Assembly (NCBI GenBank): GCA_903944555.1
Contig: CAJASG010000151.1
Span: forward strand, 1 to 13,843
Source of the DNA: an uncultured beta proteobacterium
GTDB lineage: Bacteria; Pseudomonadota; Gammaproteobacteria; Burkholderiales; Burkholderiaceae_C
Reading direction: 5' to 3'
DNA length: 13,843 nt
Shown here: one piece after another, positions 3,934-11,852 of the stretch
How the letters are laid out: the number at the start of each line of letters is the position of its first letter
Position numbering within the stretch: position 1 is the stretch's first letter
Translations under genes and position numbers: made by a program
Notes under the pieces: model-generated
Told to the model about the DNA's origin: nothing
Seen by the model: only the letters and a program-made list of their open reading frames with translations
The model's database searches: none

Positions 3934-4275
3934 ATGTCCACCCAACGCCCCCGCAACGCCACCGGCGACTCGTTTTTTGTTTGGGAAGGCGATGTGCTGG
4001 TCGTCAATATCCTGGGCAAACCCTCCGCCAGCAAAGACGCCATTGGCAAGCCCAAAGGCACCCAACTTAAGGTGAGCGTGACGGCCGCGCCCAAGGGAGG
4101 CAAGGCCACCGACTACATGGTGCGTTTTCTGGCACCGCACTTTGGCGTGACGGTGGCGGACATTGAAGTGGTGTTTGGCCAGGAAAACGTGAACAAGCAA
4201 CTGCGCATCACGCGGCCCAAAAAAATGCCTGCGGTATTTGCGCAGGCATCTTTGAATTTGGGCGACCCCGCATAA
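3934..4275 (+). CDS. DUF167 / YggU-family protein
   Basis: A 113-residue protein matching the DUF167 (YggU) family. It shows the typical order: a strand with KPSASKDAI, then TQLKVSVTAAPKGGKAT, then FLAPHFGVTVADIEVVFGQ, and a final KQLRI. Family members are small, soluble, conserved proteins of about 95-105 residues with no agreed biochemical role. The ATG at 3934 is preferred over an in-frame GTG at 3910, because the GTG lies inside the start of the divergent radical SAM gene and adds residues outside the domain. The last 18 or so residues (from KKMPAVF) extend past the conserved domain. Their DNA doubles as a hairpin that ends transcription coming from the opposite strand. The gene converges with the outer-membrane protein gene 25 bp away. 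Confidence 0.85.
   Translation: MSTQRPRNATGDSFFVWEGDVLVVNILGKPSASKDAIGKPKGTQLKVSVTAAPKGGKATDYMVRFLAPHFGVTVADIEVVFGQENVNKQLRITRPKKMPAVFAQASLNLGDPA
4219..4249 (-). terminator. Intrinsic terminator for the outer-membrane protein gene
   Basis: A perfect 9-bp inverted repeat, ATGCCTGCG / CGCAGGCAT (4225-4233 and 4241-4249), encloses a 7-nt loop. On the minus strand it is followed at once by a run of seven T (4225-4219), the classic Rho-independent form. It sits about 50 bp past the stop of the minus-strand barrel gene and inside the coding region of the convergent DUF167 gene. On the plus strand the hairpin is followed only by CTTTGAATTT, so termination that way would be weak. Confidence 0.8.
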
Positions 4276-5109: not shown

Positions 5110-5148
5110 CTTTGGAACTTTTCCATGGCCGCCAAGCTCCCACATGCA

Positions 5149-7476
5149 ATGACTTCCATCTTCAAGCCCCTCGTCACCCTCGCCAGTCGCCTCACACGGC
5201 GCGTCAACAGGCAAATTCACCGCTCCCATGTTGCTATTTTTTTCATAGCTGCTTGCGCAATAGGGACGGGGGCCAATGCCCAATTTGACTTGAAAAAACT
5301 GGGTACCGCCAGCACGCAGGCTACCAGCAACAAGGTGCAAAACGACCAGGTCCGTGCGGAGCTTCTGGCCCACGCCCCGGATGGCGTGGACGCGGGCAAA
5401 ACCCTCTGGGTGGGTTTGCGCCTTGTGCACCAGCCCCATTGGCACACTTACTGGAAAAACCCCGGCGACTCCGGCTTGGCAACCCAACTGCAATGGACCT
5501 TGCCCAAAGGCATCACGGCGGGGGAGACGGCGTGGCCGACACCGCAAAAGATTGCCATTGGCACTCTGGCCAATTTTGGCTATGAGGGCACCGTGCTGCT
5601 GCCGGTACCTCTGACCATCACCCCCGCTTTCCAGCCCAGCGCTCTGTCGCAGGACCTGGAAATTCGGCTGTCCGCAAGCTGGCTGGTGTGCCGACAGGAA
5701 TGCATCCCCCAGGAAGGCAACTTTGTGGTCCACCTGCCCCTCAAGGGATCCACCGCTTCGCACACCGCCGATTTTGACGCTGCACGCGCCGCCAGCCCGC
5801 AACCGTTTACCGGCCCAGCGCGCGTTCAGCTGGCCGCTGATGGCCTGACCCTCAACGTCGGCGGCTTGCCTGCGGCATGGCACGGCAAAGCCATCAACGC
5901 ATTCCCGGAAACCCCGGAAATTGTGGAACCCGCCGCCGCACCATTCGAGAAAGACGCCACCGCAAGCGGTGTTGCGCAGCGGCACGGCACGCAAGCATGG
6001 AAAGACGGTGTGTGGTCCGCCCAGATCCCGTTTTCGCTGCAACGCAGCACTGAGCCGACCAGCTTGCCCGTGGTACTGGCTTTGGGCAAACAAAGCGTGC
6101 GCTTGGAGGTACCTATTCAGGGCAAGTGGCCCACGGCCGCCGAGGCCAGTGCGGCGGCGCAGGCAACGCAAAACACACCGAATGCCAACATTGCCCGTGC
6201 TAGCCAAGCCGGTGGCGAGTCGAGCGCAAACTGGGGCACGTTCGCTTGGGCCCTGGCGGCGGCCGTGCTGGGTGGACTGATTTTGAACCTGATGCCCTGC
6301 GTCTTTCCGGTGCTGGCGATCAAAGTGCTCGGCTTTGCCAGCCATGGCCGGCACAGCCGTGCGGCCCACCGCGCCCAAGGCCTGGCCTACACCGCCGGGG
6401 TGGTGCTGTCCTTCATGGCCCTGGGCGGTCTGATGCTGGCCTTGCGGGCGGGCGGCGAGCAGCTGGGATGGGGCTTTCAACTGCAGTCCCCCATCGTCAT
6501 CACCGGTCTGGCGGTGCTATTCACCTTGTTGGGGCTGAACCTGGCCGGTCTGTTTGAGATTGGCAATTTGCTGCCCCACCGACTGGCCAGTCTGCAACTG
6601 CGCCATCCGGTGGTGGACGCGTTTCTGTCGGGTGTTCTGGCGGTGGCCATTGCCTCGCCCTGCACCGCACCGTTCATGGGGGCCTCATTGGGGTACGCCA
6701 TCACCCTGCCTGGCGCACAAGCACTGGGCATTTTTGCGGCCCTAGGCCTGGGGCTGGCGCTGCCCTATCTGGTCGCCGCCTGGGTGCCCGCCGTGGGTCG
6801 CTGGCTGCCCCGACCCGGCGCCTGGATGGATTCCCTGCGCCACTTCATGGCTTTTTTGATGTGGGCCACCGTGGTCTGGCTGCTATGGGTGCTGGGGCAC
6901 CTGAGCGGCGTGGACGGCGCCGCCAGCCTGCTGGCTCTGCTGCTGGGCTTGGCACTGGTGGTCTGGTCCTTGGGCCTGAAGGGTCGCAGCCGCTTAGCTT
7001 TTGCTAGCATTTCAATAGCTGTCTGCGCGCTGTTGGCGGGTGTTTTAGGCCAAAATGTCTTGAAAATGGAGGATGCCCCCACGGCTCAGGCTGCACAGGC
7101 GTCCGCGTCCGGCGATGCGATGGCACCAGCCAGCTTGGGCCAATGGCAAGCCTGGGCACCAGGACGGGTCGATGCCGAACTGGCCGCCGGCAAGCCGGTG
7201 TTTGTGGATTTCACCGCCGCTTGGTGCATCACCTGCCAGTACAACAAAAAAACCACCCTGGCCAACGCTGAGGTGTTGGCGGATTTTGCCGCCCGCAAGG
7301 TGTCGCTGCTGCGCGCCGACTGGACGCGCCGCGACCCGGCCATCACCCAGGCGCTCGAAGCGCTGGGGCGCAGTGGCGTGCCGGTGTATGTGCTGTACCA
7401 AGCAGGGCGGGCCCCGGTGGTGATGTCCGAAATACTGGGGGCAAAGGAACTGCGCGCCGCGCTTGCGACCTTGTAG
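5149..7476 (+). CDS. dsbD: Thiol:disulfide interchange protein DsbD (ScsB-like long form)
   Basis: A 775-residue membrane protein that carries electrons from cytoplasmic thioredoxin to periplasmic thiol proteins. A basic start and hydrophobic segment ending GANA-Q form the signal peptide (to about residue 45). The periplasmic N-terminal region is long, about 315 residues, with a C-x3-C pair (C181, C185 in VCRQECIP), unlike the shorter E. coli domain, and resembles ScsB. A central membrane domain has the paired cysteines C384 (LMPCVFP) and C505 (ASPCTAP). A C-terminal thioredoxin-like domain has the active site WCITC (C693, C696). All three redox pairs are present, so it should be functional. 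The ATG at 5149 gives the shortest n-region. An ATG at 5125 has a GGAA 7 nt upstream and is a real alternative. The signal-peptide core and the last membrane helix fall within two copies of an interspersed repeat. The CoA-binding gene follows after 37 bp with no terminator. Confidence 0.93.
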   Translation: MTSIFKPLVTLASRLTRRVNRQIHRSHVAIFFIAACAIGTGANAQFDLKKLGTASTQATSNKVQNDQVRAELLAHAPDGVDAGKTLWVGLRLVHQPHWHTYWKNPGDSGLATQLQWTLPKGITAGETAWPTPQKIAIGTLANFGYEGTVLLPVPLTITPAFQPSALSQDLEIRLSASWLVCRQECIPQEGNFVVHLPLKGSTASHTADFDAARAASPQPFTGPARVQLAADGLTLNVGGLPAAWHGKAINAFPETPEIVEPAAAPFEKDATASGVAQRHGTQAWKDGVWSAQIPFSLQRSTEPTSLPVVLALGKQSVRLEVPIQGKWPTAAEASAAAQATQNTPNANIARASQAGGESSANWGTFAWALAAAVLGGLILNLMPCVFPVLAIKVLGFASHGRHSRAAHRAQGLAYTAGVVLSFMALGGLMLALRAGGEQLGWGFQLQSPIVITGLAVLFTLLGLNLAGLFEIGNLLPHRLASLQLRHPVVDAFLSGVLAVAIASPCTAPFMGASLGYAITLPGAQALGIFAALGLGLALPYLVAAWVPAVGRWLPRPGAWMDSLRHFMAFLMWATVVWLLWVLGHLSGVDGAASLLALLLGLALVVWSLGLKGRSRLAFASISIAVCALLAGVLGQNVLKMEDAPTAQAAQASASGDAMAPASLGQWQAWAPGRVDAELAAGKPVFVDFTAAWCITCQYNKKTTLANAEVLADFAARKVSLLRADWTRRDPAITQALEALGRSGVPVYVLYQAGRAPVVMSEILGAKELRAALATL
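5231..5278 (+). repeat. Interspersed repeat, copy A (coding, dsbD signal peptide)
   Basis: The copy begins TTGCTAT, has a 7-nt spacer, then ATAGCTGCTTGCGCA, and later ACGGGGGC. It shares TAGCTGCTTGCG and ACGGGGGC exactly with copy C at 11782-11839. GCTAT and ATAGC form a small stem. In dsbD it is read as AIFFIAACAIGTGA, the hydrophobic core of the signal peptide. It carries two ATA codons, which are uncommon in the rest of the gene. Confidence 0.7.
7001..7057 (+). repeat. Interspersed repeat, copy B (coding, last DsbD helix)
   Basis: The copy begins TTGCTAG, has a 7-nt spacer, then ATAGCTGTCTGCGCG (12 of 15 identical to copy A). It continues to GGCCAAAATG, the fuller 3' end also seen in degenerate form in copy C. 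It lies in the same codon phase as copy A and encodes ASISIAVCALLAGVLGQ, the final membrane helix before the thioredoxin-like domain. TTA and ATA codons cluster here. Confidence 0.62.
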
Positions 7477-11764: not shown

Positions 11765-11781
11765 CCCCGTCAAATTAAGTG

Positions 11782-11839
11782 CAAAATATGGCTCAAGCCC
11801 CCGTGGAATATACGCAAGCAGCTACTTATTTGATAGCAA
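11782..11839 (-). repeat. Interspersed repeat, copy C (intergenic)
   Basis: Read on the minus strand the copy begins TTGCTAT, has a 7-nt spacer, then GTAGCTGCTTGCGTA (13 of 15 identical to copy A). It continues through ACGGGGGC to GAGCCATATTTTG. It fills most of the 88-bp gap between the convergent priA and permease genes. A TAA falls in the phase that is open in copies A and B, so it does not encode the hydrophobic segment. No conventional terminator is seen in this gap. Confidence 0.72.
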
Positions 11840-11852
11840 ACGAAGCATCAAC

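Follow-up and report, generated by a model that had tools for sequence, protein, structure and literature searches.

Two segments of a dsbD gene coincide with copies of an abundant 66-bp, dialect-forming DNA motif, possibly an uptake-like signal

The uptake sequences (DUS) of the Neisseriaceae are 10–12 bp long, occur 900–6000 times per genome, and form dialects (PMC3630211); transformation through a selective receptor probably favours the DNA that bears them, and the intragenic uptake sequences of the Neisseriaceae and Pasteurellaceae show biases of orientation and position (PMC2346458). Repeats that supply signal peptides or in-frame peptides within genes are also known, namely YPAL, ERIC, and the Rickettsia palindromic elements (RPE) (PMC2229807, PMC10969869). 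These papers, and that on the BRE repeat below, are cited for the passages that bear on the comparison, and what we say of each system holds for those passages. The motif described here resembles DUS in its copy number of at least hundreds, its presence in coding and non-coding DNA, its species spellings along the phylogeny, and the residues that it constrains (PMC3630211), but it has about 66 bp and 150–500 copies per genome. Like the USS of the Pasteurellaceae, it has many in-gene copies, lies on both strands, and has one orientation that is commoner in frames, whereas the USS has a core of 9–10 bp and belongs to another bacterial class (PMC2346458). RPEs too are DNA repeats that conserved genes read in one set frame, but they are described as insertions of about 150 bp that add a peptide, and no clean insertion was seen at the motif sites examined (PMC10969869, PMC2229807). 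As with YPAL/RU-2 and ERIC, a hydrophobic stretch encoded by the repeat falls in a predicted signal peptide or membrane segment; those are mobile elements of 127–168 bp with filled and empty sites and new fusions, whereas the segment pre-exists here (PMC2229807). BRE is likewise a repeat of Bordetella and Comamonadaceae with some copies in coding sequences, but it has about 75–91 bp, about 69% GC in Bordetella, often a tandem arrangement, and at most 29 copies per genome, whereas our motif has 66 bp and 46% GC and is dispersed (PMC3110155); BRE was set aside on length, GC content, and copy number, a distinction made by description and not by sequence. The open-licence literature yielded no prior description of the 66-bp motif, as a Comamonadaceae repeat or as an uptake sequence, and one may exist elsewhere; the core letters recur in three papers, one of which concerns an integron primer. 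An initial annotation of this DNA had proposed that a mobile or spreading short repeat was recruited, perhaps repeatedly, as membrane-spanning sequence. YPAL, ERIC, and RPE are known, so this idea has precedent, but the case of the 66-bp motif looks different in kind.

The stretch of DNA analyzed here (the window, 13,843 nucleotides from the draft genome of an uncultured beta proteobacterium) holds three copies of the motif. Copy A (5231–5295, plus strand) lies in the signal-peptide region of dsbD; its core ATAGCTGCTTGCGCA is at 5245–5259 (plus), and its translation is VAIFFIAACAIGTGANAQFDLK, DsbD residues 36–57. Copy B (7000–7065, plus strand) is degenerate and lies in the last membrane segment of dsbD, with the core region at 7015–7029 (plus) and the translation FASISIAVCALLAGVLGQNVLK. 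Copy C (11775–11840, minus strand) is non-coding and lies between two convergent genes, as defined by our own crude gene caller. The dsbD gene around copies A and B spans 5125–7476 (plus strand) from the ATG start given by the crude caller, in a frame open from 5053, and its product contained DsbD_N, DsbD_TM, and Thioredoxin_7, all above the Pfam cut-off. For scoring by nhmmer, we used a profile HMM made of 89 exact-core copies from other parts of the genome and none from the window. Copies A, B, and C reached 52.2 bits (E 8.7e-15), 21.2 bits (E 4.2e-5), and 47.8 bits (E 2e-13), with E values that refer to a search space of 270 kb, and all three were full length, starting at model column 2 or 3 and ending at column 67 of 68. 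The top match of the reversed-sequence control had 6.0 bits (E 2.3).

This analysis bore out much of what the initial annotation had noticed. A and B were identical at 21 of 29 positions without gaps (counted by hand), on the same strand and in the same codon phase, 1.77 kb apart; the third, non-coding copy, placed by the annotation at 11782–11839, was only slightly wider; and the outside-window profile showed that the shared features are those of one DNA element of about 66 bp. That A and B share a phase carries little weight on its own, because stop codons largely dictate which frame is usable. Copy B taken alone is also weak, yet it is a real site, because the same place scored at least 30 bits in 9 of 89 DsbD orthologues. 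A partial match at 4227–4256 (minus strand; 7.3 bits, E 0.92) is possibly a chance match or a decayed site. Elsewhere in the own genome, G000:C720:445-585 matched DsbD residues 24–70 with an internal stop and is probably another motif copy. The Rfam scan of the window gave no match at the gathering score.

The claim of a genome-wide interspersed repeat, which the annotation had made to depend on further copies in a genome scan, also held. At least 150 copies were present in the 4.07-Mb draft, since all 150 covariance-model candidates scored, part of 1375 first-look candidates, were matches at E ≤2.7e-7. Genome-wide, the core with at most one mismatch was found 102 + 98 times on the two strands versus 1 + 2 for the reversed-pattern control in one count, and at 148 + 127 places versus 2 + 4 in a second count that allowed one mismatch. 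In 141 stretches (440,939 bases) picked around near-exact-core copies, 183 copies were found at E ≤1e-3, and these gave the own-genome consensus TTGCTATtaATTTaATAGCTGCTTGCGCAcATTCCACGGGGGCTAGAGGCCTATTTGaCtcaaAA. An alignment was made from 112 of 114 copies at E ≤1e-4, the two that were not 68 bases long being excluded. Over the sampled copies, the motif had an information content of 73 bits and a GC content of 46%, in stretches of 60% GC. Among the 183 copies, 67 were intergenic, 27 lay in genes in the sense and 33 in the antisense orientation, and 56 overlapped gene ends; these counts describe the sample, not the genome, and the gene calls came from our crude codon-usage caller, whose starts are uncertain. 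Intergenic copies were commoner in convergent gaps (18/57 versus 26/158 of all gaps of at least 70 bp) and rarer in divergent ones (7/57 versus 48/158), with 10 more at stretch edges left unclassed. In one open frame, a pair of antisense copies (L087:1431-1495 and 1536-1600) was spaced by about 105 bp, and both were stop-free. A replication-strand polarity that had been suggested for comparison genome G007 was dropped (51 plus versus 38 minus, with regional unevenness).

All 27 sense in-gene copies were read in one phase, approximately A-I-x-x-I-A-A-C-A-x-S-T-G-A, and 28 of the 33 antisense copies shared another phase, approximately P-L-A-P-V-E-x-A-Q-A-A-I-K. In the 67 intergenic copies, the used sense frame was open in 34, another frame in 15, and the third in none. 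Translated in the sense frame, the motif resembles a signal-peptide or membrane segment that contains a lipobox-like IAAC and closes with something like A-x-A-Q. Hydropathy (KD) of at least 1.6 was found for 8 of the 27 sense copies versus 1 of the 33 antisense copies (Fisher p 0.008), and in 7.3% of 6419 background windows, an enrichment to which the motif's own reading contributes in part. Below this KD cut-off were 19 of the 27 sense copies; many occur in soluble enzymes, Cca, ThiL, LeuS, and GlcE among them. By family match, host genes included cca, lolD, dapE, leuS, thiL, glcE, hpnC, tilS, kefC, and lpxB; secreted or membrane hosts included a LolB-like protein (lipobox IAGC), a secretin, a lytic transglycosylase, an apolipoprotein N-acyltransferase, and a transglycosylase/penicillin-binding protein. 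Four gene-start copies (L147:1584-1648, L016:8786-8850, L053:1536-1600, and L045:1502-1566) read as lipoprotein or secretion signals; the IAGC lipobox of the LolB-like protein was among the gene-start copies, and the others were N-terminal hydrophobic stretches.

The motif appears to overlie gene sequence that was already there, and not to have been inserted into it. From at least 80 named DsbD loci plus relatives, 97 of 109 loci had a forward-strand frame of more than 400 residues, and removal of 8 duplicates left 89 orthologues. The B segment had the same length in 88 of the 89; where the motif scored below 15 bits, the length was kept in 69 of 70 and the segment was hydrophobic in 70 of 70. 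The A segment had the same length in 74 of the 89, and below 15 bits it kept the length in 41 of 56 and was hydrophobic in 50 of 56. Motif-free orthologues keep both segments, and the last helix and the signal peptide are therefore independent of the motif. The annotation had asked whether the segments are absent or replaced in relatives, and had named helices that are independent of the nucleotides as the finding that would speak against it; the latter is largely what the alignment showed. Its claim that a mobile repeat supplied the DsbD helices is thus not supported, and no insertion was found at the A or B site. Judged from these alignments, the motif probably did not bring the DsbD helices, and hydrophobic segments are more plausibly places that tolerate it.

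Other genes gave a similar picture, with exceptions. Across the motif, LolD aligned without gaps in 29 of 29 orthologues from the genus, with motif scores anywhere between 56 bits and none, and a solved PDB LolD did so too; LpxB was gapless against a solved homologue. Cca site 1 had 22 residues in 26 of 29 orthologues and 21 in three, with a variable stretch of 0–12 residues directly after it, and site 2 had 22 in 29 of 29. In GlcE, all 12 orthologues with a motif match at the site had 22 residues, whereas among 16 without a match 2 had 22 and 14 had 24–25 (one further sequence was a fragment). DapE had 9–13 of 22 columns filled without the motif and 21–22 with it, and length differences occurred at the sites in ThiL (+11), LeuS (+6), TilS (+6), and KefC (+3). 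Given these length-changing sites, an in-place origin is not uniform across sites, but a clean gain of 22 residues was seen at none of the sites examined.

We also compared two close genomes, G001 and G020, over ten pairs of syntenic stretches, in which aligned blocks longer than 1 kb were 91.6–96.6% identical (about 94%). Flanking alignment was available for 19 of 23 and 18 of 20 copies, and all of these were matched at the same place, with no empty site or 66-bp gap among the 19 and 18; the six others (4 + 2), beyond the aligned blocks or at their margins, were not judged. Mean identity, taken over the listed values on the G001 side, was about 0.92 in the motif versus 0.94 in the flanks, and single copies fell to 0.67, 0.83, and 0.85. 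The comparison of motif and flanks speaks against the idea that each copy is under strong purifying selection. Synonymous codons were kept better in the motif (0.72–0.87) than outside it (0.51–0.64) among motif-bearing orthologues, a comparison limited to orthologues of at least 30 bits and so conditioned on motif score.

At orthologous sites that are not linked to one another, the base tended to follow the genome and not the gene. The sites compared were those of dsbD (two), cca (two), lolD, the dapE locus (two, the second orthologous by position only), and glcE, in the eight comparison genomes with loci for these genes. Model column 43 was G in 84% of own copies, but C in 61% of 23 G001 copies and in 24 of 24 G007 copies, the latter from loci chosen by a core variant. 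At the orthologous sites, this column was C at 8/8 in G007, 7/8 in G034, 6/8 in G029, 4/8 in G001, and 0/8 in the own genome, and it was G throughout in G015, G026, and G031. In G009, CCGCA replaced GCGCA (index 24 C) at 6 of 6 orthologous sites. G026, whose spelling is known from these sites alone, had T in place of the own genome's C at index 25 at 7 of 7. Fisher values for the dialects were 0.0002, 0.002, and 0.0006, which are post hoc, the positions having been picked after looking. An independent exact search of whole genomes found the G009 spelling 98 + 97 times (195) in G009 versus at most 10 times on both strands in each of 36 others. The G009 core change puts proline or serine in place of the own cysteine or histidine at the matching places of DsbD copy A (FFIAACA in the own genome, FFIAAPA in G009), both Cca sites, and GlcE. 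A concerted change at core position 9 was not relied on, as two G007 loci had been pre-selected for C.

Since change is concerted at fixed, unlinked sites and no insertion was seen, we infer a reader that acts in trans and favours the DNA bearing the motif. Copies A and B would then be sites of a long, dialect-forming double-stranded DNA motif that is read in trans, most likely by an uptake receptor, a reading to which we give an even chance. The role in DNA uptake is suggested by analogy with DUS and USS, in which a receptor of natural transformation is the sequence-specific reader. Under this mechanism, mutation together with biased recombination would draw partial matches in genes to the current consensus; as the preference of the reader drifts, the sites would follow and dialects would form. 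The missing covariation of the arms, the better-kept synonymous codons of the motif, and its rarity in plasmid and phage records also fit this account. An in-gene motif would be tolerated where its open frames give acceptable residues, and signal-peptide and membrane segments, including both of those in DsbD, would be favoured places. Two properties of uptake sequences, strong over-representation in both orientations and species-specific dialects, were found here, the latter with G001 mixed at column 43; a third, a short motif of 9–12 bp, was not. Counting against an uptake role are the length and richness of the motif (about 66 bp and 73 bits), far beyond known uptake sequences, the lack of a positive link to ComEC, the length changes at some motif sites, a conservation between close genomes that does not exceed that of the flanks, and the mixed dialect of G001.

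The motif might instead be the site of a chromosome-organizing, replication, or other DNA-binding protein, kept by selection at each site, with dialects arising by co-evolution of protein and sites. A dyad-like 5′ part with half-sites that vary independently, occurrence in both orientations within and between genes, rarity on plasmids and phages, and the concerted dialects would all suit such a protein. However, selection at hundreds of 66-bp sites within enzymes is demanding, the motif is no better conserved than its flanks at about 94% identity, and motif-poor genomes of the same genus manage without it, so we regard this explanation as rather unlikely. Conversion among dispersed copies by ectopic recombination, spreading and homogenizing the motif with no bias of uptake, would produce concerted change at unlinked sites, and it could leave the clustered substitutions seen in the three least identical single copies of the close genome pair; but 66 imperfect base pairs offer short homology, and conversion by itself makes no new sites over unrelated gene sequence, which leaves it a doubtful explanation of clearly lower probability. 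A mobile short repeat of the MITE, REP, or RPE type, inserted and recruited as membrane segments with some copies since decayed, was rejected as the main account and is very improbable, for although the high copy number, the fixed phase in genes, the hydrophobic enrichment of sense copies, the length differences at DapE, ThiL, LeuS, and TilS, and the precedents of YPAL and RPE fit it, there was no clean 22-residue gain at the sites examined, the helices are present in motif-free orthologues, no empty site was seen among alignable copies of the two close genomes, the arms do not covary, and the lineage spelling sits at fixed positions. What stands of the annotation's reading is thus the interspersed element with its fixed phase and hydrophobic enrichment, and not the recruitment as helices. 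An RNA or REP hairpin was rejected as well, because the window has no Rfam match at the gathering score, the consensus folds no better than shuffles, and the arm pairs lack covariation: in 181 own copies, GCTAT occurred with ATAGC in 64, with GTAGC in 27, and with GGAGC in 20, GCTCC occurred with GGAGC in 2, and no compensatory change that preserves the terminal inverted repeats or a hairpin was found.

If the motif is an uptake-type signal, it would point to sequence-specific natural transformation in a large environmental family, for which the open-licence literature holds no such report. A DNA-level process would then be seen to set amino acids of enzymes and export signals, and changes of dialect would serve as natural experiments. 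If another reader is involved, the motif would mark hundreds of sites of a chromosome-wide DNA-binding system. For annotation, a resemblance between signal peptides, lipoboxes, or helices in this family may reflect the footprint of the motif and not homology.

The motif is not confined to the genome under study. Core matches in 37 genus genomes reached 405 in G034, 387 in G007, and 377 in G015, and many genomes were near background; among 349 family genomes, several genera were high (e.g., 283 + 243, 277 + 303, and 266 + 278) and many were at the control level. Somewhat more tentatively than for copies A and B, at slightly less than an even chance, we propose that many genera of the family carry a 66-bp dialect-forming recognition sequence. 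It would be an uptake-like signal of a new class, far longer than DUS and USS, that overlies existing genes on both strands, including those of conserved enzymes, and may drag protein sequences in parallel across unlinked loci. ComEC was tried as a marker of motif bearers and showed no positive association in the 37 genus genomes, being present in 10 of 14 with at least 90 core matches and in 21 of 23 with fewer, and no ComEC match was found in G026 (99% complete, 104 core matches) or in the own draft. The copies of G026 scored low at orthologous sites and may have decayed once the reader was lost. The motif was found in none of 50,697 phage records and in 2 of 72,556 plasmid records, both from Comamonadaceae (NZ_CP019241.1:28594-28643 of Rhodoferax antarcticus, and AP026971.1:211440-211485). 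The strict motif pattern also occurred in four contigs of the IMG/VR viral collection (L399–L402), which may be viral or host DNA.
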